Below the pieces are notes generated by a model. The model was not told the DNA's origin. It worked only from the letters and a program-made list of their open reading frames with translations, and ran no database searches. Made by a program: the position numbers and the translations under genes. From the NCBI GenBank assembly GCA_017541145.1, contig JAFXZT010000047.1:1-50350 (forward strand): a stretch of 50,350 nucleotides of DNA. Reading direction: 5' to 3'. Below are positions 2,964 to 25,560 of the stretch, piece after piece; within the stretch, counting starts at the first letter, position 1, and each line of letters starts with the position of its first letter. Source of the stretch: Bacteroidales bacterium. GTDB lineage: Bacteria; Bacteroidota; Bacteroidia; Bacteroidales; UBA3824.

Positions 2964-5312
2964 TTATTTTTTTATAACTTCAAAATTTTGTTTCGGACGC
3001 AAAACATCGCTGCATTTTTCTGTGAATGTATTGTTGATTGCAACGGTTTTTACTTGTGCAAAATTTTCGGAAGAATTGCCGGCTTTGAATTGATATTCAC
3101 CTTTTTCCATTTTCCAACTTGAAGTTTCTGAATCAAACGAAGCCATTTCTTTGTACGAAATTTCCATTTCCAAAGTTTGTTCTTCGCCGGGGTTCAAAAG
3201 TTTGGTTTTCTTGAATGCTTTCAATTCTATTTCCGGTTTATAAAGTTCTGATTTCGGTGCTGTTACATAAATTTCTGCAACTTCTTTTCCTGCTGTTTTT
3301 CCGGTATTTTTTACTTTGATTTTTACAGTAATTTTGTCGTTTTGATCAGCAACTTCCAAATCAGAAAATTCAAATGTTGTATAACTCAAACCGTAGCCGA
3401 ACGGAAATTTTGTCTTTTTGCCAAAACTGCTGAAATATCTGTATCCTACAAAAATGTCTTCGTAATAATTTGTAAAATCAAGATTTTCATCGTTGTGACG
3501 TTCTGTACCGCGTCCGAACATCGATTTGTTGTTGGCTTCGTAATCGTAAGGGAAATTTTTCGCTGACGGATAATCGAAATAATCTTCGGCAAATGATACC
3601 GGCAATTTTCCTGACGGATTGTCTTTGCCAAGTAAGATGTCAGCAACGGCATTGCCGCCTTCTTGACCGCCCATCCAGCTGAGTATCACTGCATCAGGAG
3701 TGTCAACCCAAGATTTGGTTTCTATTACGCCGCCGGTATTGAGTATTACGATTACTTTTTTACCGAGTTTTGAAAATGCTTTTTGTACCGAATTCAGCAA
3801 TTTTTTCTCGTTGTCTTGAAGATAAAAATCCGCAATTCTTCTGTCGCGAAATTCTCCGCTGCATCGTCCTATTGTGATTACTGCTGCATCGTTTTTTTTC
3901 GCAAATTCAGTTAAATCCTGATCGGAAATTTCAAAGTTTTCCGGCATGAATTTGTAAACAAAAGCATTGTTAATTGTTGTGTCGGCATCGTGAATTTTGC
4001 GTTGTTTTTCAATCTCTTGTGTGTAACGGTTTTCAAGATTTTCATCGATATTCAAGCCCGCATTTCTCAATCCTTCGGTAAGCGATACGGTGTGTTCTTC
4101 GTTGACATCGCCCGAACCTGTACCGCCCGAAACAAATTCGTAACTGATTGTACCGAAAACTGCTACATCTTTAACGTTTTTCAGCGGCAAAGCATTGTTT
4201 TTGTTGGTGAGCAAAATTATACCTTCAGCGGCTGATTGACGGGTGATTTTTGCGTGTGCCGGCATGTCGGGTTTGTTGCTGAATTTGTAACCTTGAAATC
4301 TCGGTGTTTTGAGAATCAGTTCCAAAATGCGTTTTATATTTTGATCCATGGCTTGTTTGTCAATTTTACCGTTTTTCAAGCCTTCTTTTATTTGATTGTA
4401 CTGATTATCAGTTCCCGGCATCAGCAAATCGTTGCCTGAATTTACTTGCGCTGTTGCATCAAGTCCGGCAAACCAATCGGTCATTACCAAACCTTTGAAA
4501 GCCATATCTTTGCGCAATACCGAATCGTTCAATTCTTTGGATTCCGAAGTGTAAGTGCCGTTCAGATAATTGTAAGAAGTCATTACTGTCCAAGGATTTG
4601 CATCGTTGATTGCGATGTCAAACTGTCGGAAATATATTTCTCTCTGAGCGCGGGTGGATACTCTGGAATCGGTGCTGTTTCTGAAAGTTTCCTGATTGTT
4701 GCATGCAAAATGTTTTATCGAAGTTCCCACGCCGTTGCTCTGAATTCCTTTGATAATTGAGGCGGCGATTTTGCCTGCCAACAGTGGATCTTCCGAGTAA
4801 TATTCATAATTTCTGCCGCATAACGGATTTCGGTGAATATTAACGCCCGGACCGAGAATTACGTCCACTCCGTATTCCTTAACTTCTTGACCCATAGCTT
4901 TTCCAACCTCTTCCACCAAATCCTGATTCCAAGTGCTGGCAAGCATTGTTGCCACCGGAAACGCTGTACAATAGTAAGTTTCGGTAGAATCGTTTCTTTT
5001 TGGCGAAATTCTCAAACCCGCAGGTCCGTCTGCCAAAACTATCGACGGAATTCCCAAACGCGGTATTCCGTGAGTTGTGCCGGCTGCTCCGGGTATGATA
5101 TCGTCGTTTGCGCCTACCACGCCTACCGGTTCTTCGATGTTTTTCATTCCGCAGCCCAGAAGCAACATTATTTTCTCGTCTTCTGTCATGGCTGCCACTA
5201 CGTCGTCAAGTTTGTCAACACCAAGTTTCGGAGCTTTGTCGCCGCCGCAACTTGTTGAAAATAACGTTGTTGCTGATATTATTCCCATGATTAATTTTTT
5301 GACTCTTTTCAT
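2964..5312 (-). CDS. Glycoside hydrolase family 3 beta-glucosidase-like lipoprotein
   Basis: 782 aa. A short hydrophobic leader ends in FSTSCGG, so the protein is probably lipidated at C22 and anchored in the envelope. The GH3 N-terminal barrel covers about res 35-350, with HGIPRLGIPSIVLADGPAG, substrate-binding KHFACNNQE (200-208) and the likely nucleophile D279 in GLVMTDW. The GH3 C-terminal domain (about 380-610) contains AVITIGRCSGEFRDR, VIVILNTGGVIE and ILSWMGGQEGGNAVADIL. A fibronectin-III-like domain closes the protein (about 680-755). It should release glucose or related sugars from beta-linked oligosaccharides; the exact linkage cannot be read from sequence. No SusC/SusD pair is nearby, so this is not a typical polysaccharide utilisation locus. 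Confidence 0.92.
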   Translation of the reverse strand: MKRVKKLIMGIISATTLFSTSCGGDKAPKLGVDKLDDVVAAMTEDEKIMLLLGCGMKNIEEPVGVVGANDDIIPGAAGTTHGIPRLGIPSIVLADGPAGLRISPKRNDSTETYYCTAFPVATMLASTWNQDLVEEVGKAMGQEVKEYGVDVILGPGVNIHRNPLCGRNYEYYSEDPLLAGKIAASIIKGIQSNGVGTSIKHFACNNQETFRNSTDSRVSTRAQREIYFRQFDIAINDANPWTVMTSYNYLNGTYTSESKELNDSVLRKDMAFKGLVMTDWFAGLDATAQVNSGNDLLMPGTDNQYNQIKEGLKNGKIDKQAMDQNIKRILELILKTPRFQGYKFSNKPDMPAHAKITRQSAAEGIILLTNKNNALPLKNVKDVAVFGTISYEFVSGGTGSGDVNEEHTVSLTEGLRNAGLNIDENLENRYTQEIEKQRKIHDADTTINNAFVYKFMPENFEISDQDLTEFAKKNDAAVITIGRCSGEFRDRRIADFYLQDNEKKLLNSVQKAFSKLGKKVIVILNTGGVIETKSWVDTPDAVILSWMGGQEGGNAVADILLGKDNPSGKLPVSFAEDYFDYPSAKNFPYDYEANNKSMFGRGTERHNDENLDFTNYYEDIFVGYRYFSSFGKKTKFPFGYGLSYTTFEFSDLEVADQNDKITVKIKVKNTGKTAGKEVAEIYVTAPKSELYKPEIELKAFKKTKLLNPGEEQTLEMEISYKEMASFDSETSSWKMEKGEYQFKAGNSSENFAQVKTVAINNTFTEKCSDVLRPKQNFEVIKK

Positions 5313-5364
5313 TATAATCAGTATATTAAGTTAAAAAAAAATTATTAGTAGTTTCGTGCGGTTT

Positions 5365-6441
5365 TTACTTTAATTTGTAAAAAGTTTTGTCACCGTTGTT
5401 TTGCACTTTGTAATTATTTTTGTATGAATATTTTGTAACTTCCGGGTTTGAGATATTTGTCTTGCCGTCGGGAGTTGTGATTTTTACACTGTGTTTTGTT
5501 TCACGGTTGTTTTTATCGTACTCATATTCATCTATTTGCAAACTTTTTATCGTGTCTGCATCAAACTGTTCCAAAGTGATTTTTATTAGTTGGTTTTTGG
5601 CGTTATAATTTCTTGTTTCGGTTAAAATCTTTTTGCTGTCGTCCACCGTTTTCTTTATCAAATTGCCTTTCTCGTCATAATCTAAAGTTATGGTTTCCAG
5701 ATTGATAACTTCGTCTTCTGAATTTATTTTGTATTCATGTTTTGAGTAGACTAACTGATATTTTTCGCCGATTTTTTCGTATTTTCCCGACCATGTTGAC
5801 AGCCATTTGTAGTAAGAATTGTTAGGTTTGTTTGTAACATTATCTTTTGTAATTTGCTGTTCCAAGGTTTGAATCAATGTATCGTTACCCAAATTATCAT
5901 CGTAAATAAATTGGGTTTGAATTGCAGTAATTTCGCCGTTTTTCGATTTTTGTTCTGCAATTTTTACCAACACCGTATCTTTGTATTCGTATTTTGTCGT
6001 ATAGTTTTTTACGTCGGGATTGTTAGTCTGAAAATCACAGCTAAGTAACTTTCCGTCAGCGCTGTACGTGTAGGCAAATTGTTCTTCGTAATTGTCTTTT
6101 GAATTTCTTTTTGTTGATACCAATTTGCCTTGTTCGTTGTAAATATTATGTTCGGCAAATATTGTTTTTCCACTGTCAATAATTTCGTGCAAAGTAATAT
6201 TTCCGTCGGGATTGTAAATCCATTTTTCTTTCACATTGCCTTCCTTGTCGTAGCTTTTTAGCGGCGTGTCCCAATCCACTTCATTTGGTTTGGCTTTTAT
6301 TTCATCGTTTTTGGGATCGTTTTGGACGTAAATCTCTGTTGAATCTTCTGTAGATTTCGTCGTTTTGTTGTAGTTTCCGTTGGATTCGCAGGCTGCAAAA
6401 GCTACAGCAAAGACTGCAATCGTCAAAATTTTTTGTTTCAT
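5365..6441 (-). CDS. YD-repeat-like lipoprotein, paralogue 1
   Basis: 358 aa; the leader ends in AFAAC, so the mature protein is lipidated at C18. After a polar linker the sequence consists of about 20-residue units of the kind YDEKGNLIKK, YDKNNRETKH, YNEQGKLVST and YTYSADGKLL, the pattern of YD (Rhs-like) repeats that build extended beta-sheet. VDWDTPLKSYDKEGN at about res 54-68 marks the start of the repeats, and the end KYSYKNNYKVQNNGDKTFYKLK resembles the end of its neighbour. It has no toxin or catalytic domain. It shares layout and C-terminal motif with the next gene upstream, 127 bp away, so the two are a tandem duplication. The role is unknown. Confidence 0.7.
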   Translation of the reverse strand: MKQKILTIAVFAVAFAACESNGNYNKTTKSTEDSTEIYVQNDPKNDEIKAKPNEVDWDTPLKSYDKEGNVKEKWIYNPDGNITLHEIIDSGKTIFAEHNIYNEQGKLVSTKRNSKDNYEEQFAYTYSADGKLLSCDFQTNNPDVKNYTTKYEYKDTVLVKIAEQKSKNGEITAIQTQFIYDDNLGNDTLIQTLEQQITKDNVTNKPNNSYYKWLSTWSGKYEKIGEKYQLVYSKHEYKINSEDEVINLETITLDYDEKGNLIKKTVDDSKKILTETRNYNAKNQLIKITLEQFDADTIKSLQIDEYEYDKNNRETKHSVKITTPDGKTNISNPEVTKYSYKNNYKVQNNGDKTFYKLK

Positions 6442-6568
6442 TTTTTGTTTTTTGACTGTGAAATATTTTGTGTTTACTTTTTATTTTATCATTCTTTCCT
6501 ATTTTTTTTTGAGTTATTAATTTTTTTTGACTTTTTGTTGACATCAATTATTGATTTTTTGCGGTTTG

Positions 6569-7447
6569 CTATTTAAACATGAAAAATGTTTTTTCGCCGG
6601 TGTTTGCTATACGGCAATTTTGGTCGTAAGTATAAGTTTCGATGTTCTCTATCAGCGCGTTAGCCGCAAAATCTTTATTGATAGTTTTGTGTTTGATTAT
6701 TCTGTTGTATTTGTCGTATTCAAATTCGTCAGACGAAATCAATCCGTCTTCAGGATGTTCGATTTTTATTTGTGTAACATTTCCGTTCTCGTCGTAATCG
6801 TATGTAGTTGAGCTTGTTAGCCAAGGAGCTTGCTCGCCTTTATACTTCATTTTGTGAACTGCTTTCAGTTTGTTTTTTCCGTTTACAGTTACATATTCCA
6901 TTTTTTGCAATTCGCACATAATTCCGGGGTCGGATACTGATTGTATCAATGTATCGTTGCCGTTTTCGTCTGAATAATAATTCTTTACAATTGGCTGAGC
7001 TGAACTTGCAATTTTCAACGATTCTGTTTTTTTGTTACCGTTGTATTCATATTTTGCAGTGCTCGATTCTTTGGTTTCGTTTTCCAAATATGTGCGGCTT
7101 GTTATACGGTTTTGCTTGTCGTAACCGTATTTTATCAAGGCTTTTTTGCTGTCTTTTACAAACATCTTGCGTTCGCAAATCATATTGTTCAACGAATCGT
7201 AAGTATATGTTTTTTCGAGAGTTAAGTTTCCGTTGCTGTATTCATCGGTTTTTATCAACTGGTTTTGTTCGTTGTATTCTTGAACTATCGAAGTGTCACC
7301 ATTTGATAGAATTTTGCAAATTTCTTTTTCCCAGTCAACATCTTCCGGTGAATGGTAAACTTTTTCTGTTTTTACCGTGTTGGAATTTGTGCATGCTGAA
7401 ATTCCAAACGTAACAATTGTTATTGCTGTCAATACTGATTTTTTCAT
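6569..7447 (-). CDS. YD-repeat-like lipoprotein, paralogue 2
   Basis: 292 aa with a lipoprotein leader ending in GISAC. It follows the plan of its neighbour at 5365-6441: a polar linker, VDWEKEI near res 39, then repeats such as YNEQNQLIKT, YDSLNNMICE, YDKQNRITSR, YDENGNVTQI and YDKYNRIIKH, and a closing block RIANTGEKTFFMFK that parallels NNGDKTFYKLK in the other copy. A good Bacteroides-type promoter lies at 7519-7526, so both paralogues may be read from one transcript. It has no enzymatic motif. It could be a surface adhesin or scaffold, but this is only inference from the repeats. Confidence 0.7.
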   Translation of the reverse strand: MKKSVLTAITIVTFGISACTNSNTVKTEKVYHSPEDVDWEKEICKILSNGDTSIVQEYNEQNQLIKTDEYSNGNLTLEKTYTYDSLNNMICERKMFVKDSKKALIKYGYDKQNRITSRTYLENETKESSTAKYEYNGNKKTESLKIASSAQPIVKNYYSDENGNDTLIQSVSDPGIMCELQKMEYVTVNGKNKLKAVHKMKYKGEQAPWLTSSTTYDYDENGNVTQIKIEHPEDGLISSDEFEYDKYNRIIKHKTINKDFAANALIENIETYTYDQNCRIANTGEKTFFMFK

Positions 7448-7518
7448 GGTTGTTGTTTATAAAATTTTTTCTAATAATTTGTTTTTATTTTTCTGGTAAA
7501 AATTATTTGTTATCGAAG

Positions 7519-7526
7519 CAAATTTA
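7519..7526 (-). promoter_or_regulatory. Promoter -7 element of the YD-repeat lipoproteins
   Basis: On the minus strand this reads TAAATTTG, an exact match to the Bacteroides -7 consensus TAnnTTTG. A TTTG -33 element lies 21 nt upstream at 7548-7551 (minus strand). The predicted leader is about 65 nt. Confidence 0.65.
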
Positions 7527-7616
7527 ATCAAAAAATCTTTTATAATCCAAAAAAAATTGTAATAAAAAATTTTGTTTTGAGGTTGAAATTTGATTTGTAA
7601 AGATGTTAAAAAAAAA

Positions 7617-7649
7617 AACTCCGGACAACATCTCTGTTTTTCCGGAGTT
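7617..7649 (-). terminator. Intrinsic terminator of nadD
   Basis: A perfect 9-bp stem (AACTCCGGA / TCCGGAGTT) is followed in the leftward direction by a run of ten T residues. It lies 25 nt past the nadD stop codon. Confidence 0.88.
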
Positions 7650-7673
7650 GAGTAAATATTTTTGTAGTAAAAT

Positions 7674-8267
7674 CTATTCTTCTTTTTTCTTCTTTTTCTT
7701 GTAAAAATTCATTTCATCGAGATATTCCCATGCTTTTTCCGGCATGAAAAATCTTACGTCGTTGCCGTTTTGAATGGATTCGCGGATAAATGTGCTTGAT
7801 ACTTCGATTATAGGTGTGTTTACCAGCGTAATATTCGGATGATTTTTCATCGGTCCGCCGTCGCTGCCATTTCTCGGAAAAACAATAATATGGTAATTTT
7901 CAACTATTTGCTCCGAATTTTTCCATCTGTCCAAACGTTCCAAATTGTCGGTTCCCATTATCAGATAAAACTCTCGAGTCGGATATTTTTCTTTCAAATA
8001 AGTGAGTGTATCGATAGTGTAAGATGGTTTCGGCATTGAAAATTCGATGTCGCAGGCTTGAAACTTTTTGTAACCTTCAATTGCTCGGTTTACAAGTTCA
8101 AGTCTTTGATAATCGGGTAGGAGAGACTCTTTTTGTTTGAACGGGTTTTGCGGGCTGATTACAAACCATAGATAGTCCAATTCTGAATATTCCACCAGAT
8201 AGTTTGCAAGCATCAAGTGTCCGTTGTGTATCGGATTAAAAGACCCGAAGTAAAGTCCTGTTTTCAT
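7674..8267 (-). CDS. nadD: Nicotinate-nucleotide adenylyltransferase NadD
   Basis: Cytoplasmic enzyme of NAD synthesis that transfers AMP from ATP to nicotinate mononucleotide. At 197 aa it has the usual length. The nucleotidyltransferase signature GLYFGSFNPIHNGH (res 4-17) has both histidines of the (H/T)xGH motif region. PQNPFKQK, IMGTDNLERLDRWKN and the C-terminal VSSTFIRESI (the ISSTxIR motif) are all present. The C-terminus is a lysine-rich tail KKKKKKEE. It stands alone, between its terminator and the hairpin at 8377-8452, and no clear promoter was found in the 109 bp before it. Confidence 0.96.
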   Translation of the reverse strand: MKTGLYFGSFNPIHNGHLMLANYLVEYSELDYLWFVISPQNPFKQKESLLPDYQRLELVNRAIEGYKKFQACDIEFSMPKPSYTIDTLTYLKEKYPTREFYLIMGTDNLERLDRWKNSEQIVENYHIIVFPRNGSDGGPMKNHPNITLVNTPIIEVSSTFIRESIQNGNDVRFFMPEKAWEYLDEMNFYKKKKKKEE

Positions 8268-17651: not shown

Positions 17652-17713
17652 CAGCGTAATTGTGCGTTTATACAATGTAAAAAAAACACATGTATAATTA
17701 CCTGAAACAGGTT

Positions 17714-18685
17714 ATGAAAAGATTTGTTGTTGCGATTATATTTCTGACAATTGTGTTTCGTGTAGCGGCACAGGATTACATTTTTTCGCAATATTATTTG
17801 GACAAGTTTTCGATAAATCCTGCATTTGCGGGCATTGGGGCTTATTCGGAAGTAGGAACAATTTTTCGCGACCAGTGGCCCGGTATCGAAAAAGGTTACA
17901 AAATTTACAGTGCATATTACAGACAAAAATTACCGTCGGTACAAAGCGGTCTGGCATTGCGTGTTAACGGAAATGTAAGCGGTGGAGCTTATTCTCAAAA
18001 TGCAGCTTCTGTAATTTATGCTTATGATTTCCATTTAACTTACGGCGTAAAATGTAGTCTTGGCATCGAAATTGGTTTTCTTAACAAAAGTCTGAACCAA
18101 TCGCAACTCGTGTATTACAGCATGATAGACGCCGCCACGGGCAATACATCGGCACTCAACGAATCGGTGGAATATGACAGCTATAATTCTTTGCATTTTT
18201 CTACCGGAGTTTGCGTTTATACCAAGCATACAATTGTAGGTTTGGGAGTTCACAGACTTACAAAAATGGTGATAACGGGTGTTGACAATTATATGCCGGT
18301 TTTGTTGACCGGATTTGTCAATCATAAAATTGTACTTAACACTGTAACAATTAAACAAAAGGTAGAAGATATTTATATTTTGCCGTCATTGTTGTACACA
18401 CATTCACCCGTAGCCGATATGATAATGCCGGGCGTATCGTTTAGCGGTTACAAATTGAGATTGGGACTTGCTTATCGCTATCAACGTTCTGATTATCAAA
18501 GTAGTGCAATAGTTACGAGCATAGGATTCAGTTTCGGAAATTTAGAATTAGGATTCGGACATGATTTCGATTTAGGTGCAATTTCCGGTATATCCAAAGG
18601 CTCAAACGAAGTAGGATTAAAATATAATTTTGAAAATTCGCAAAAAAATAAGGGTTCAAAAACAATATTGTGTCCTGCTTTTTAG
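17714..18685 (+). CDS. PorP/SprF family type IX secretion outer-membrane protein (copy 2)
   Basis: 323 aa from ATG 17714 (MKRFVVAIIF); an in-frame ATG at 17690 would put eight polar residues before the signal peptide. The signal peptide ends in RVAAQ, and the mature part begins DYIFSQYYLDKFSINPAFAG, with FRDQWPGI a little later, both hallmarks of the family. The barrel strands end with NEVGLKYNFE, and the last residues are ILCPAF. It is followed after 38 nt by gldJ. A PorP-type gene beside a GldJ/GldK-type lipoprotein gene is a known arrangement in type IX secretion loci, but porL, porM and porN do not follow here. Confidence 0.93.
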   Translation: MKRFVVAIIFLTIVFRVAAQDYIFSQYYLDKFSINPAFAGIGAYSEVGTIFRDQWPGIEKGYKIYSAYYRQKLPSVQSGLALRVNGNVSGGAYSQNAASVIYAYDFHLTYGVKCSLGIEIGFLNKSLNQSQLVYYSMIDAATGNTSALNESVEYDSYNSLHFSTGVCVYTKHTIVGLGVHRLTKMVITGVDNYMPVLLTGFVNHKIVLNTVTIKQKVEDIYILPSLLYTHSPVADMIMPGVSFSGYKLRLGLAYRYQRSDYQSSAIVTSIGFSFGNLELGFGHDFDLGAISGISKGSNEVGLKYNFENSQKNKGSKTILCPAF

Positions 18686-18686
18686 T

Positions 18687-18694
18687 TATATTTG
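18687..18694 (+). promoter_or_regulatory. Promoter -7 element of gldJ
   Basis: TATATTTG starts just after the stop codon of the preceding PorP/SprF gene, so gldJ may be transcribed both from its own promoter and by read-through. Confidence 0.5.
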
Positions 18695-18723
18695 TGAAAT
18701 TTTGTTTAAAACTCAAATACAAT

Positions 18724-20259
18724 ATGAAAGTGCGATTGAAGATAATTTTGCTCGCTTGCATATTATCTGGGGGAGCGATGATGATGATGTCGTCTTGCGG
18801 ACCCAAGATATCAAAGCGTAGCGGGTCATCCAGCAAAACTGGATGGGGCTACAACGATGACAAAATGGGAGGATTCGAGGTTGCCGAATATGTAGAACAA
18901 GACGCCGGACCAGGTCTCGTACTTGTAGAAGGCGGTACATTCACCATGGGTAGCGTAGAGCAAGATGTTATGTATGACTGGAACTCTATGAGAAAACGTG
19001 TTACAGTTTCGTCTTTCTATATGGATGAAACCGAAATCTCTAACGTTGACTACCGCGAATATTTAAACTGGGTATACAGAGTATTCTATGACGAATATCC
19101 GGAGCTTTATTTCAAAGCATTACCAGATACACTCTGCTGGCGTAGACGCTTGGCATTCAACGAACCATACGTTCAGTTTTACTTCCGTCACCCGGCATAC
19201 AACGACTATCCTGCTGTTGGTGTAAGTTGGGAACAAGCTTCTGAATATTGCTTGTGGCGTACTGACCGTGTTAATGAAAAAGCCCTTATCGATTACGGCG
19301 TTCTTGAGTATGACGCTGAACAGAAAGGTTCTAACAACTTTAACACTGAAGCTTATATCGCCGGTAAGTATATCGGTACTGTAAAACATAATATTCCTTC
19401 ACCTTCATCTCCTGATGGTGAGCGTCCTGCTAAGATGGAAGACGGTATCATGCTTCCTTCTTACCGACTCCCTACCGAGGCTGAATGGGAATATGCTGCT
19501 TTGGCTCTTATCGGTAACTCACAAACTTCTCCGGAACGTATTGTAAACCAAAGACTTTATCCTTGGAACGGACATTATGTTCGTAACGACGAAAAAGCTA
19601 ACCGCGGTTTGTTTATGGCAAATATCCAGAGAGGTCGAGGCGACCTTATGGGTGTGGCCGGTTACTTGAACGATAACGCGGCTCCTACTGCTCCTGTTGA
19701 CAGCTACTGGCCAAACGATTACGGTTTGTATTGTATGGCAGGTAATGTTAACGAATGGGTTTTGGACGTTTATCGTGCTTCATCTAATATGGACGTTGAA
19801 GAATTCAACCCTTTCCGTGGTAACGTTTTCCAAGTTCTTGAAACAGATGCTAACAACGAATTTGTTCTTGACGATACTACCGGTCGTTTGAAATACAGAA
19901 ACATGACTCCGGAAGAATCTGTTGACCGTATCAACTATCAACAAGCTGACAATATCAACTATCGCGATGGTGATATGCGTTCTTCTTCAGACAAAGCTGA
20001 TTGGCTCGGCGGTGAAACTGAAGATAAAGGTTCTGAAAGAATGTATCACAATAAACACTCTGAAGACAGCCCGATGACCTCTTTGGTTAACGACCGTGTA
20101 AGAGTTTACAAAGGAGGCGGTTGGAGAGACCGTGTTTATTGGATGGTTCCTGGTACAAGAAGATTCTTACAACAAGACAAATGTTCTGATGACCTCGGAT
20201 TCCGTTGTGCTATGATCCGCGTTGGTTCTCCGGGCGGTGTTGGCGGTTCTAAGAAATAA
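18724..20259 (+). CDS. gldJ: GldJ-like gliding-motility / type IX secretion lipoprotein (SUMF1 fold)
   Basis: 511 aa from ATG 18724; a longer frame from 18670 adds 18 residues that overlap the preceding gene. A lipoprotein leader ends in MMMSSC (C25). The formylglycine-generating-enzyme (SUMF1) fold starts at GPGLVLVEGGTFTMGSVEQD, followed by VSSFYMDETEISNVDYREYL, YPAVGVSWEQASEYCLWR, YRLPTEAEWEYAAL, YCMAGNVNEWVLDV and, near the end, RVYKGGGWRDRVYW and DLGFRCAMI. The large insertion between the EWEYAAL and GNVNEW blocks and the VEQDVMYDWN motif point to GldJ rather than to the enzyme or to GldK. GldJ is an outer-membrane-associated lipoprotein needed for GldK stability in flavobacteria. GC and codon use are more regular than in the neighbours, typical of a highly expressed gene. 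Confidence 0.88.
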   Translation: MKVRLKIILLACILSGGAMMMMSSCGPKISKRSGSSSKTGWGYNDDKMGGFEVAEYVEQDAGPGLVLVEGGTFTMGSVEQDVMYDWNSMRKRVTVSSFYMDETEISNVDYREYLNWVYRVFYDEYPELYFKALPDTLCWRRRLAFNEPYVQFYFRHPAYNDYPAVGVSWEQASEYCLWRTDRVNEKALIDYGVLEYDAEQKGSNNFNTEAYIAGKYIGTVKHNIPSPSSPDGERPAKMEDGIMLPSYRLPTEAEWEYAALALIGNSQTSPERIVNQRLYPWNGHYVRNDEKANRGLFMANIQRGRGDLMGVAGYLNDNAAPTAPVDSYWPNDYGLYCMAGNVNEWVLDVYRASSNMDVEEFNPFRGNVFQVLETDANNEFVLDDTTGRLKYRNMTPEESVDRINYQQADNINYRDGDMRSSSDKADWLGGETEDKGSERMYHNKHSEDSPMTSLVNDRVRVYKGGGWRDRVYWMVPGTRRFLQQDKCSDDLGFRCAMIRVGSPGGVGGSKK

Positions 20260-21911: not shown

Positions 21912-22098
21912 AAAAAAAGTGGTTAAAATATTGAAATTGAGTTGTAAAAACATTTTGAGAAAAAATGTTTCAAAAAAATTTGAGAGTTTGAAAATCTTGA
22001 ATTAATTTTACAGCAGATAAATTATTTAGGAAAAATATGATAAAAAAACGGCGAAGAGACGTCGTTGAAATAATCTAACTAACATATTATAAGAAATT

Positions 22099-22107
22099 TA
22101 GCGTTTG
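22099..22107 (+). promoter_or_regulatory. Promoter-like box in front of the structured RNA
   Basis: TAGCGTTTG is TAnnTTTG with one extra base in the spacer, the same variant as in front of the caspase-like gene. It would place the transcription start at about 22112-22114, exactly at the foot of the long hairpin. No -33 element is obvious. Confidence 0.4.
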
Positions 22108-22111
22108 CTAT

Positions 22112-22271
22112 TTATTCAGCACTGCTTCAAAACCTGAGAAATTTTGAAATGTATCAGTCGTGAATAAGTCTGCGAATGTCTACGCCTTTGCGTGGACGTT
22201 GACTTATCGACTGATACGGGCAATTCTCAGGGCCTTGAAGCGTGGATAATGTTAAGTCCGCGCTTTTTTTT
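22112..22271 (+). ncRNA. Structured rod-like RNA with intrinsic terminator (6S-like or leader RNA)
   Basis: This 160-nt non-coding stretch folds into one long rod. From the foot upward the paired arms are: CAC 22120-22122 with GTG 22242-22244; GCTTCAA 22124-22130 with 22235-22241; CCTGAGAA 22133-22140 with 22224-22231; an open bubble (22141-22150 and 22218-22223); GTATCAGTCG 22151-22160 with 22208-22217; ATAAGTC 22164-22170 with 22201-22207; and AATGTCTACGC 22175-22185 with 22190-22200 around a CTTT loop (two G-U pairs). That is about 46 base pairs. A promoter-like box precedes it and a T-tailed hairpin ends it. The rod with an asymmetric central bubble recalls 6S RNA, which binds RNA polymerase; this identity is inference. 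The alternative is a regulatory leader of the restriction genes, whose first ATG is 65 nt beyond the end. Confidence 0.65.
22239..22271 (+). terminator. Intrinsic terminator of the structured RNA
   Basis: AGCGTGGA (22239-22246) pairs with TCCGCGCT (22257-22264) including one G-U pair, followed by eight T residues (22264-22271). Its left arm overlaps the foot of the long hairpin (TTGAAGCGTG), so the two structures are mutually exclusive at their base, as in attenuators. Confidence 0.8.
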
Positions 22272-22336
22272 ATGCCTTGAAAATTCCCGTAATCCTGAAA
22301 TGATAAGCCAAACGCCATAAAAATCGCGTAGTTAAT

Positions 22337-24448
22337 ATGGCAAAAAGCATCGAAGAAAAAATCGAGGATATTGCAAAACAGCAATTAGATCGGTTTGGTG
22401 TGAAGTATCATATCAAAACCGACAATATAAATGAAGAAATTAACCACGCTCTCACTACCGAAAAAAGCAAATCAGGCGGAGAGGGTGGCAATTATCCCGA
22501 CATCAAATGTTTAATACAATTACCGCAAAGCCTTAGTTATATTCCTGTTATGATTGAGGTAAAAGGAACATTCGGCGATTTGATAAAACTGAATGACGAC
22601 GGACAGATTGCGAACCAAGACGAAAAAGGCAAGCCCATATATAAAAACATAAAAAAGTACGCTGTAAATGGGGCTGTACATTATTCATACGCCGTTGCCA
22701 GAATTACAAAGTCTTACAACAATGTCATTGCAATTGGCTTCAATGGTTATAATGTACAATCACAGAGCGAGCCTATAACCGAAATGGGCGTTTTCTATGT
22801 GAGTAAGGCTAATATGTACCGTCCAAAGAAAATTGCTGACTATACAGACTTCTCGTTTCTTAAAGACGACAATCTTTCAGCCCTTGAAGAAAAACTAAAA
22901 AATATTTTCCTTACTGACGCTGAAAAGGAGTCGCAGACTCGCGAACTTGAAGACCAGATTGAAAATGTTCTTACCGACCTCAACCAAGATATGCGCGACA
23001 AAATGCAAGTTTCTGAGCCAAAAGACCGTTTAAAACTTGTTTGTGCGTTGATAATGGCAGGTCTTGGTGTGGAAGGAAAAATTCAGCCTCTCGAAATCAG
23101 CGATTTGAAAGGACTTGTAACAGATGAAGAACACGACGGTGCAATTATTCTGAGAAAGATTAAAATTTTCCTCACCGAAAAACACCTTCCAAAAGAAAAA
23201 CTTGATAATATTAACTCTCTGTATAAAGGTATTTTAAATGATGTACTATATTATCGCCCTGTTAATGGCGCAAGTACAATCAAAAATGCTTTTATTCAGA
23301 TTAAGGAAGATATTATGCCCATTTTCACTATGGGAGAAGAAGTGCATATTGACTTTACGGGAAAACTGTTGAATGTGCTTACCAGTTGGATTCGTGAACG
23401 CGCAAGCGACGACGAGAAAAACGATGTTGTGCTGACGCCTCGTTATGTAACTGAGTTAATGGCACGTCTTTGCAAAGTCAACAAAGATAGTTATGTTTGG
23501 GATTGGGCAACAGGTAGTGCAGGGTTCCTTGTTTCGGCAATGAAATTGATGATTGAAGACGCAAACAATACTATAACGAGCGAGGAGGAACGCAAATTAA
23601 AAATTGCCAATATAAAAATCAATCAATTGCTTGGTGTGGAAATGCGGCAAGACATCTACATCCTTGCTGTTTTGAATATGATATTGATGAAAGACGGCTC
23701 GTCGCATATTCTCAACAAAAACTCTTTGTCGGAATACTACGGCAAATATGAGCAAGGCGAAAACAAAGACAATGATTTTCCCGCCGATGTATTTTTGCTT
23801 AATCCTCCTTACTCAGCCGAAGGCAAAGGGATGGTTTTCGTTGAAAAAGCGTTGAACTATATGCACAAAGGTAGAGCTTGTGTGATTATCCAGGAAAATG
23901 CAGGTAGCGGACAAGGAATAGTTGAAAATCAAGGTAAAACAAGAACAAACAGAAACGCTCAGCCATTTTGTAGAAGGATATTGATGAATAATACTCTCTT
24001 GGCTTCCATTCGTATGCCGATTGATTTGTTTATAGGCAAATCAAGCGTGCAAACGGCAATTTATCTTTTTGAAGTTGGTGTACCTCACAACCAAGACAAT
24101 CTTGTAACATTTGTTGATTTTAGCAATGATGGATATCAACGAATGAACCGCAAAAAATCAAGTTCAAAAGTTAATCTGAGGGATGCCGACCACGTGAAAG
24201 AACGTTATGCGGAACTTGTGGATATTGTTTTGAATCGAAAAACAAAAACCGGTTATTACACCATCACAAACGGTCTTCTTGTAAAAGATACGATAACACT
24301 CAACGGTAATGATTGGACATACAATCAGCACCGCGAAATTGACACCATTCCCACCGAGGCAGATTTTCGTAAAACTGTCTCCGAATATTTGAGTTGGAAA
24401 ATTGGTTCTCTTATCAAAGGAGAAGAAGAATTTGTGGATTTTCAGTAA
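22337..24448 (+). CDS. Restriction-modification subunit: N-terminal nuclease fused to N6-adenine methyltransferase (BcgI A-like)
   Basis: 703 aa. The N-terminal part (about res 1-170) has a PD-(D/E)xK nuclease pattern: PD at 54-55 and E74-V-K76 in VMIEVKG. A helical linker is followed by the methyltransferase core, with HIDFTGKLLNVLTSWI, the SAM-binding DWATGSAGF (389-397) and the catalytic NPPY (489-492), and by the target-side segments MNNTLLASIRMPIDLF and TAIYLFEVGVPH. HsdM proteins lack the nuclease, so this resembles BcgI subunit A: cleavage and methylation in one chain, with specificity in the next gene. It should methylate adenine and cut unmodified DNA, probably on both sides of its site as Type IIB enzymes do. 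The stop overlaps the start region of the specificity gene. Confidence 0.85.
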   Translation: MAKSIEEKIEDIAKQQLDRFGVKYHIKTDNINEEINHALTTEKSKSGGEGGNYPDIKCLIQLPQSLSYIPVMIEVKGTFGDLIKLNDDGQIANQDEKGKPIYKNIKKYAVNGAVHYSYAVARITKSYNNVIAIGFNGYNVQSQSEPITEMGVFYVSKANMYRPKKIADYTDFSFLKDDNLSALEEKLKNIFLTDAEKESQTRELEDQIENVLTDLNQDMRDKMQVSEPKDRLKLVCALIMAGLGVEGKIQPLEISDLKGLVTDEEHDGAIILRKIKIFLTEKHLPKEKLDNINSLYKGILNDVLYYRPVNGASTIKNAFIQIKEDIMPIFTMGEEVHIDFTGKLLNVLTSWIRERASDDEKNDVVLTPRYVTELMARLCKVNKDSYVWDWATGSAGFLVSAMKLMIEDANNTITSEEERKLKIANIKINQLLGVEMRQDIYILAVLNMILMKDGSSHILNKNSLSEYYGKYEQGENKDNDFPADVFLLNPPYSAEGKGMVFVEKALNYMHKGRACVIIQENAGSGQGIVENQGKTRTNRNAQPFCRRILMNNTLLASIRMPIDLFIGKSSVQTAIYLFEVGVPHNQDNLVTFVDFSNDGYQRMNRKKSSSKVNLRDADHVKERYAELVDIVLNRKTKTGYYTITNGLLVKDTITLNGNDWTYNQHREIDTIPTEADFRKTVSEYLSWKIGSLIKGEEEFVDFQ

Positions 24449-25560
24449 GCCCCCGTTTGCAAGAACTTGAACGACAATTCAAGGCAGACGGGGGCACGTT
24501 CAAAGAGTACAAAATTGGGGATTTGTTTAAAGTATCAACTCCTTTGAAGAAATTCAATGCAAATGCTATTCAATTTGGCACTAAATATCGCTATGTTGTA
24601 AGAACGAGCCAAAATAATGGTATTCGCGGTTATTTGGATGAAGATGAAAAATATTTGAATCCTGCCAATTCAATATCTTTTGGACAAGATACTGCCACAA
24701 TCTTTTATCAAGACCAACCATATTTTACAGGTGATAAAATAAAGGTAATGGAGTTTTTGAGGTCTGAATTGAATCCGATTATTGCTTGTTATTTATTGGC
24801 GGTAATGAATAGAGCATTTAGTACGTTTCAATGGGGACAAAGTTCTTTTAATGAGAATATATTGAGAAGTGTATGTGTTGCTCTACCCACATCTTTCAAC
24901 GGAGAAATTGATTTTGATTATATGGAATCATATATCCACGAACTCCAAAATGAAAGTATAATCAAACTGAATGATTATTTAAAATCAAACGGATTAGAAA
25001 AAACGGAACTTACACAAGAAGAAAAAGATGCAGTGCTTCAATTGAGAAGTGGTGAGGTTGAATGGAAAGAGTTTCGATACAATGAAATTTTCAACCATAT
25101 TGAACAGGGTAGGCGTTTGAAAAAAGACGACCAAATGCCCGGCGATATTCCTTTTGTGATGTCAGGTGTAACAAATACTGGTGTAGTGAATTATATTTCT
25201 AATCCAGTTGCATCGTTCCCTGCAAATTCAATTACGGTTGACATTTTTGGAAATACATTTTATCGTGATTTTGCGTATGGTCTTGGTGATGATACAGGCG
25301 CATATTATAATGATGAAAAACAATATACAAAAGAACAGATGCTTTTTATAGCGTCTGCAATGGGAAAATCGCTTGAAGGAAAGTTCTCTTACGGCAATAA
25401 ATTGCGTAGTTCTCAGAGTTTTGACTTGAAAATGTTCCTTCCCATTACTACCAACGGCGAAATTGATTGGGCTTTTATGCAAAATCTCATTACTGCCGAA
25501 AGCCGCCTTGCTATTCGTGGTGTTGTTGAATGGAAGGACAAAATTTTGGATAATTTTTGA
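24394..25560 (+). CDS. Restriction-modification specificity subunit (BcgI B / HsdS-like)
   Basis: 388 aa if the ATG at 24394 is used, which overlaps the methyltransferase gene by 55 nt; the first convincing family residues are SPRLQELERQF (about res 19-29), so a non-ATG start near 24448 is also possible. Two target-recognition halves are visible: the first starts at TFKEYKIGDLFKV and ends near res 185, the second starts at VEWKEFRYNEIFNHIEQGRR and ends near MFLPITTNGEIDWAFM. Each ends with the same signature (NGEIDFDYMESYI and NGEIDWAFMQNLI), followed by a helix that spaces the halves. Two such domains imply a bipartite recognition sequence. No separate hsdR lies nearby, in agreement with the nuclease being in the partner subunit. 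Confidence 0.88.
   Translation: MENWFSYQRRRRICGFSVSPRLQELERQFKADGGTFKEYKIGDLFKVSTPLKKFNANAIQFGTKYRYVVRTSQNNGIRGYLDEDEKYLNPANSISFGQDTATIFYQDQPYFTGDKIKVMEFLRSELNPIIACYLLAVMNRAFSTFQWGQSSFNENILRSVCVALPTSFNGEIDFDYMESYIHELQNESIIKLNDYLKSNGLEKTELTQEEKDAVLQLRSGEVEWKEFRYNEIFNHIEQGRRLKKDDQMPGDIPFVMSGVTNTGVVNYISNPVASFPANSITVDIFGNTFYRDFAYGLGDDTGAYYNDEKQYTKEQMLFIASAMGKSLEGKFSYGNKLRSSQSFDLKMFLPITTNGEIDWAFMQNLITAESRLAIRGVVEWKDKILDNF

Follow-up and report, generated by a model that had tools for sequence, protein, structure and literature searches.

A multicopy family of leader RNAs with two alternative folds before restriction-modification and other genes of Bacteroidota

We analyzed a stretch of 50,350 nucleotides from a Bacteroidales bacterium (contig JAFXZT010000047.1, hereafter the window) and found that a rod-shaped RNA element lying before a restriction gene, at positions 22099 to 22271, is one copy of a large multicopy leader family of the Bacteroidota. 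In addition to the rod, the copies conserve a second fold, composed of two hairpins with complementary loops, the second of which abuts a U-run. A structured leader acting in cis is well supported, it probably switches the genes behind it on and off, and we cautiously favor the view that it works as a transcription attenuator with a 1:2, 2:3, 3:4 pairing logic. The family is apparently previously undescribed, as the open-access full-text literature yielded no description of it; one may exist elsewhere.

Folding of positions 22090 to 22275 yielded a single long rod, bulged and capped by a CTTT loop, with a minimum free energy (MFE) of -73.9 kcal/mol. None of 200 dinucleotide shuffles was as stable (mean, -42.02; SD, 3.68; z = -8.66). 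The long hairpin drawn in a preliminary description of this DNA is thus borne out by the fold and passes the comparison with shuffled sequence which that description had put forward as a check. The two G-U pairs that it singled out, 22181-22194 and 22177-22198, are both present in the MFE fold; the former sits in helix P6, where 84 copies include C-G (44) and U-G (37) forms.

The element is encoded on the forward strand, and we divided it into four strands and two arm regions. Strand s1 (22101 to 22117), with the conserved sequence GCGTTTGC-T-ATTTATTC, pairs with strand s2 (22162 to 22179) in hairpin H1, and s2 has strand s3 (22190 to 22208) as its other partner, in helices P5/P6 of the rod. 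Strand s3 pairs either with s2 or with strand s4 (22244 to 22263), with which it forms a terminator-like hairpin, H2; in some copies, s4 also contains a short local hairpin (74.3% of cells paired). Between s1 and s2, region L1 (22118 to 22161) supplies the 5' arms of the rod helices, comprising P2 (22124 to 22129), P3 or loop X (22133 to 22139), and P4 (22151 to 22159). The 3' arms of P4, P3, and P2 are in L2 (22209 to 22243), which includes within P3 the loop X' (22225 to 22231), with the nearly invariant dinucleotides GG (22219 to 22220) and CC (22233 to 22234) at its flanks. A run of eight T residues (22264 to 22271) follows directly 3' of H2. The preliminary description had placed the element at 22099 to 22271; it is larger than that, since complementary segments continue toward the ATG. 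One of them, complementary to L2, lies past the U-run (22272 to 22289), and another, GATAAGCCAAACGCC, complementary to s1, is located 5' of the start codon (22302 to 22316), the limits of both being set by eye. Upstream of the rod is, by eye, a small putative hairpin (CGGCG-loop-CGTCG, 22049 to 22064), the stem sequence of which varies among the copies of the genus.

The genes behind the leader are on the same strand and encode a type IIG restriction enzyme-methyltransferase (22337 to 24448; PADLOC PDLC03616, E = 5.5e-167) and, as the next gene, a specificity subunit (24394 to 25560; PADLOC Specificity_II, E = 2.3e-28). Upstream of this operon, positions 17690 to 20259 hold a PorP/SprF-like gene and a formylglycine-type lipoprotein gene, which by eye we take to be type IX secretion system-like.

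We then looked into the distribution of the element. A DNA search detected a second copy in the window's genome, with 80% identity. Of 59 genomes searched from the genus and order, 17 (the window's among them) had matches, some of these short only. A motif search gave matches in 6 of 247 genomes of the order, and the reversed pattern had no match among the matches listed. In named contigs, the motif was found in at least 118 stretches; among the 80 titles listed, 68 are from Bacteroidota, by eye mostly of the rumen and gut, and the other 12 (Bradyrhizobium, Pelagibacter, etc.) look like chance matches. Since this search was seeded with the exact motif, its invariance among those copies holds by construction. 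We built a covariance model (R1), which gives rough E values, from an alignment of 85 copies (A2, see below). Including the window's own genome throughout, it had matches at E ≤ 1e-3 in 19 of the 29 genomes searched in the genus and order; in the order at large, 51 of 159 were positive at E ≤ 1e-7, and across the phylum 30 of 296 at E ≤ 1e-6. At E ≤ 1e-3, the window's genome has 11 matches; of 17 genomes of the genus, 12 have between 10 and 29 each, and two incomplete ones have none. Ten genomes from outside the phylum gave one weak match (27.1 bits, E = 1.1e-4). In G033, G095, G163, and G081, several copies lie 200 to 550 bp from contig ends, as if the repeated leader and gene start had broken the assemblies. 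Neither a viral nor a plasmid origin of the window copy was retained: the four motif matches in viral contigs appear by eye to be due to chance, and the copy had no blastn match in plasmid and phage collections.

For covariation analysis, we started from 112 motif copies and dropped 13 (chance matches, six of them judged by eye, a truncated copy, short forms, and poor ends), which left 99. Alignment A2 comprises 85 of these, less than 80% alike and aligned with plain MAFFT. Alignment A3 was fitted to the rod and has 102 distinct rows, from 107 matches in 100 sources of our choice. In A3, 93.0% of the cells of the 42 modelled rod pairs are paired, compared with 64.5% in shuffles, a control that, like the mismatching of strands used below, leaves some effect of relatedness. 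Compensatory changes on both sides were found in all 42 pairs, and the covariation score of 0.712 compares with 0.207 for shuffled and at most 0.086 for slid alignments. The same rod pairs were recovered in A2 and another plain MAFFT alignment, neither of which was fitted to the structure. In the unfitted column statistics, pair 22136-22228 takes the forms GC, AU, UA, and CG, with 97% paired. Helix P4 has an identity of only 0.29 between genomes, which is near random, and 90.5% of its cells are still paired. The preliminary description was right to suggest selection at the RNA level, and the covariation that it named as a check is very strong.

To evaluate the alternative pairings, we compared the duplex energies of matched strands of one copy with those of strands mismatched between copies (101 copies; one of the 102 rows, with short segments, was left out here and in the prefix folds). 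The z values were -37.5 for L1:L2, -10.9 for s2:s3, -15.6 for s1:s2, and -21.0 for s3:s4, and the controls L1:down, s3:down, L1:up, and L2:up gave +1.3, -0.8, +3.1, and -0.1, respectively. The s1:s2, s2:s3, and s3:s4 pairings hold when the 52 close copies and the 49 distant ones are analyzed separately. An s1:s4 pairing suggested by column statistics was discarded, as it reached only -1.6 in this test. Downstream of the U-run, L2:down had a z value of -13.2 (-13.7 in close relatives and -1.2 in distant ones) and s1:down -5.8 (-4.8 and -2.7), and s4:down had -6.6 in the distant copies versus +1.5 in the close ones. In A3, a rod-fitted alignment, 87.7% of the cells of the s1:s2 and s3:s4 pairs are paired (84.0% in shuffled and 40.6 to 54.2% in slid alignments), and both-side changes occur in 20 of the 30 second-fold pairs, compared with 14.7 in shuffles. 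Pairing between loops X and X' is common to both folds. In H1 and H2, the two loops can be closed by AA/UU and GG/CC pairs that are nearly invariant; the loop-closing pair 22221-22232 covaries (UA, 61; CG, 25), and these closing bases are unpaired in the MFE rod of the window. With the rod forbidden in the folding, 58 of the 102 copies formed the AA:UU closing pair and 86 the GG:CC pair; 48 formed both.

The energies place the rod first for RNA alone. Without a kissing term, the rod was the more stable fold in 99 of 101 copies, and by a mean of 12.0 kcal/mol overall, so that the second fold would need kissing, kinetics, or a partner. With a term for X:X' kissing (mean, -10.1), the gap shrank to 2.1 ± 5.8 kcal/mol, with 63 of 102 copies within 5, although this term is a bare duplex energy with no loop penalty and thus favors the second fold. 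Prefixes ending at s2 contained s1:s2 with at least eight pairs in 97 of 101 copies. In prefixes ending before s4, the rod pairing s2:s3 was already in the MFE fold in 101 of 101, and s3:s4 was in the final MFE fold in 2 of 101, which indicates that naked RNA at equilibrium should be a rod.

We next examined the signals around the fold. The preliminary description had read a TAnnTTTG-like promoter box at the foot of the rod. That sequence is the conserved strand AGCGTTTGCTATTTATTC, base-paired inside the element, and a better box, TAATTTTA, is found at 22003 to 22010 on the forward strand, about 90 nt upstream of the strand at the foot of the rod. It is of the TAnnTTTG type, which we take to be the consensus of a -7 promoter box, and it probably starts a transcript at about 22016 to 22018. 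A TAnnTTTG or TAnnTTTAC box was present 15 to 130 nt upstream in 68 of 99 copies (7.6 in shuffles), at a median distance of 76 nt (71 copies). At the other end, a run of at least five T residues follows the helix in 85 of 102 copies, compared with 9.6% of upstream control windows; such a run is absent from 17 copies, and a run of at least five A residues occupies the same place in a single one of the 102. As to the intrinsic terminator proposed for the window, the eight-T run is present, 65 bp before the ATG at 22337, and termination there is a prediction. Copies like the window's own carry a short hairpin at the U-run and could terminate in the rod state too.

The longest nearby ORF was co-oriented with the element in 89 of the 98 copies with enough sequence, a raw count with no orientation control, and its ATG was located a median of 67 nt downstream; seven of the nine exceptions carry a shorter co-oriented ORF. 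In L135, near position 4436 of the stretch that also bears L011, the core of the leader is deleted and both ends are kept, still before an hsdM-like gene.

An ORF of at least 90 aa was found behind 92 of 106 motif copies, taking the longest nearby ATG frame, which may be wrong in a few cases. According to Pfam, these first ORFs contained N6_Mtase (25), N6_N4_Mtase (18), Eco57I (16), HSDR_N_2 (11), MethyltransfD12 (5), C5 DNA_methylase (4), DUF1016_N (4), and Acyl_transf_3 (4) domains, the counts being overlapping. They fall into 33 BLAST clusters, and the leader is thus common to nonhomologous genes. Among 49 ORFs behind other, mostly more distant copies, 26 have secreted- or lipoprotein-like starts by eye, and Pfam identified Por_Secre_tail (4), Flg_new_2 (3), LRR_5 (2), and N6_Mtase (2). 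Some further copies appear by eye to precede short XRE-like regulators, and four from other orders of the phylum (L262, L268, L270, and L129) lie near a secreted protein with an RRYEYF..GYKQYN-like motif, also by eye. Reading the neighbors revealed no obvious common pathway or metabolite for the genes behind the leader.

Comparison of eight locus pairs by blastn gave clues to the evolution of these loci. In three of them, the junction between alike and unlike sequence lies exactly at the start codon. The window and L172 have genes that are 96% alike from the A of the ATG, preceded by a 146-bp leader piece only 71% alike; conversely, L172 and L025 match at 97% as far as the ATG and have different genes thereafter, and L167 and L052 are likewise alike (92%) to the ATG before their genes differ. 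In L170/L169, the homology extends 31 bp into the gene, in L023/L058 it ends within the 5' block, and three pairs have no such junction. Judging from these alignments, leader and gene modules recombine. The rod arms can also be replaced between alike flanks. L105 and L118 have flanks with identities of 0.99 and 0.85, 0.33 in P2, 0.11 in P4, and 0.86 in loop X. In L242 versus L231 (the same as L243), both from G163, the flanks are at 0.91 and 0.91 and the s-strands are 88% alike, P2, X, and P4 are at 0.50, 0.29, and 0.25, and the pairing is kept. Among 11 pairs with alike flanks, P4 identity was at most 0.33 in three and 0.44 to 1.00 in the rest. Such replacement may have come about by gene conversion, or copy-specific arms may have been selected for. 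These comparisons do not show that the arms within a genome are orthogonal: arm identity is higher within genomes (0.47) than between them (0.38), an argument against strong selection for difference, and loop X is common to the window copy and L166, both from one genome. A different arrangement is seen around L165 (G035:C31), where positions 4165 to 8032 hold a tandem series of four DUF1016/YhcG-like nuclease genes. Three start 20 to 30 nt behind a short 5' block, AGCGTTTGCT with a AACTAACAT-like lead, with no rod; the fourth is a shorter frame behind the same block, and a full element before a restriction-like gene comes next.

We then compared the element with known RNAs. At gathering scores, Rfam 15 gave no match in the window, and within 21912 to 22340 at E ≤ 10 there were nine weak matches (E = 1.4 to 9), far below gathering and without 6S among them. 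No match fell within the element in 19 further loci scanned at gathering scores or in nine distant loci scanned at E ≤ 0.5; only 5S rRNA and tRNA were matched, outside it. The 6S identity that the preliminary description inferred from the shape did not hold in the tests applied. RF00013 had no match in the own genome (the positive control matched 6 of 14 genomes), nor did RF01685, for which the test is weak (its control matched 1 of 14, below the cutoff), and the genome has 11 R1 matches rather than one or two. The element resembles 6S RNA (RF00013) and 6S-Flavo (RF01685) in being a long bulged rod that runs from a promoter to a terminator-like end, but it differs by its multicopy nature, its place before co-oriented ORFs, and its alternative two-hairpin fold. 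The description was nonetheless right about a functional RNA with a promoter, a rod, and a terminator-like end, although a better promoter box lies farther upstream and the RNA is not 6S by these tests.

In the textbook trp-type attenuator, four strands pair as 1:2, 2:3, and 3:4. The leader family has the same strand order, with the U-run directly after 3:4, and is distinguished by complementary loops that give a long rod, by nonbiosynthetic genes, and by its many matches, 10 to 29 in each of 12 genomes out of 17 in the genus. A conserved leader peptide seems unlikely, as, by eye, the frame of a small upstream ORF changes among the copies of the genus. Riboswitch-type leaders with an expression platform are also conserved and structured, with mutually exclusive folds before ORFs; here, however, few bases are conserved outside the s-strands (AA, UU, GG, and CC, maybe for loop closure), and the gene set has no obvious common metabolite. 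The JUMPstart/ops leaders of RfaH-controlled operons provide a precedent for one element before unrelated, horizontally acquired operons. That family is named in the part of PMC2864571 covered here. Our leader likewise precedes unrelated genes, but its fold is much larger, and the Rfam scans gave no JUMPstart match. Within the same phylum, the portion of PMC9723704 covered describes 64 structured 5' regions of Flavobacterium psychrophilum, some with no Rfam match and including Flavo-1. These regions could include the leader family; Flavo-1 and all other Rfam models had no match within nine copies from the class and phylum. The parts of PMC2965389 and PMC2864571 covered name nothing like the family.

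We propose the following mechanism. Once both strands are transcribed, s1 would pair with s2 to form H1. When s3 and L2 have been made, s2 would swap s1 for s3 and L1 would zip with L2 into the long rod, which would leave s4 free and allow the polymerase to read through into the gene. If H1 persisted, s3 would pair with s4 instead, and the resulting H2, which ends at the U-run, would cause termination; in this H1-plus-H2 state, loop X of H1 and loop X' of H2 could kiss. A protein, a small molecule, or the speed of transcription might bias the choice toward H1. Near the start codon, the segments past the U-run that are complementary to L2 or s4 may give the read-through RNA a new fold.

Among the readings of these data, attenuation in cis is the one to which we lean, as mutually exclusive, conserved pairings of four strands are present together with a U-run behind the fourth. 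The leader might instead act after transcription, on translation, RNA stability, or ribosome access, with a U-run that is no working terminator. The complementary segments between the U-run and the ATG (L2 in close copies, s4 in distant ones), the 17 copies with no run of five T, and the rod rather than the terminator hairpin as MFE fold in 99 of 101 copies fit this proposal, which we nevertheless consider rather unlikely, since the U-run next to H2, present in 85 of 102 copies, would otherwise be hard to account for. We find it less probable still that the element is a stand-alone small RNA of about 165 to 250 nt, from promoter to U-run, 6S-like or otherwise acting in trans. Its own promoter box, its terminator-like end, and a rod shape that recalls 6S are what one would expect of such an RNA, but there is no 6S match (with a weak RF01685 test), most genomes of the genus have 10 or more matches, and the fact that 89 of 98 copies stand before co-oriented ORFs suggests a leader acting in cis.

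Two further explanations would place the function in the DNA or dispense with it. A recombination or gene-capture site, attC-like or mobile, with the RNA fold as a by-product, would explain why, in three of the eight locus pairs (window/L172, L172/L025, and L167/L052), homology breaks precisely at the start codon and why P2 and P4 have diverged between the alike flanks of L105 and L118. It is an improbable one given that T-runs are strand specific (85 copies, versus A-runs in 1) and promoter boxes lie upstream, that copies precede unrelated genes in several orders, and that plasmid and phage collections held no blastn match of the window copy. Very improbable, finally, is a miniature mobile repeat that landed before genes with no function for them: mean identity is indeed higher within a genome (0.63, 67 pairs) than between genomes (0.54, 923 pairs), but the orientation and the distance to the ATG speak against this reading, as does the pairing kept in nearly saturated sequence such as P4.

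Together, the rod and the kissing hairpins would make a switch. A leader before unrelated restriction-modification genes has implications for the safe expression of incoming methylases and nucleases after transfer. More tentatively, and as a possibility that we hold to be doubtful, a phylum-wide bistable leader RNA may be a common control device for accessory genes of the Bacteroidota (restriction-modification, surface and secreted proteins, and small XRE regulators), with the rod arms as copy-specific addresses. Such addresses would make sense of arms that change almost beyond recognition with pairing kept, even between some duplicated loci, and the many paralogous leaders of a cell would then fold only on themselves or answer only their own partner. 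Bacteroidota are prominent in the gut and rumen, and a structured RNA with up to 29 R1 matches per genome of the genus, found in several orders and absent from Rfam 15, would represent a large unread layer of gene control.
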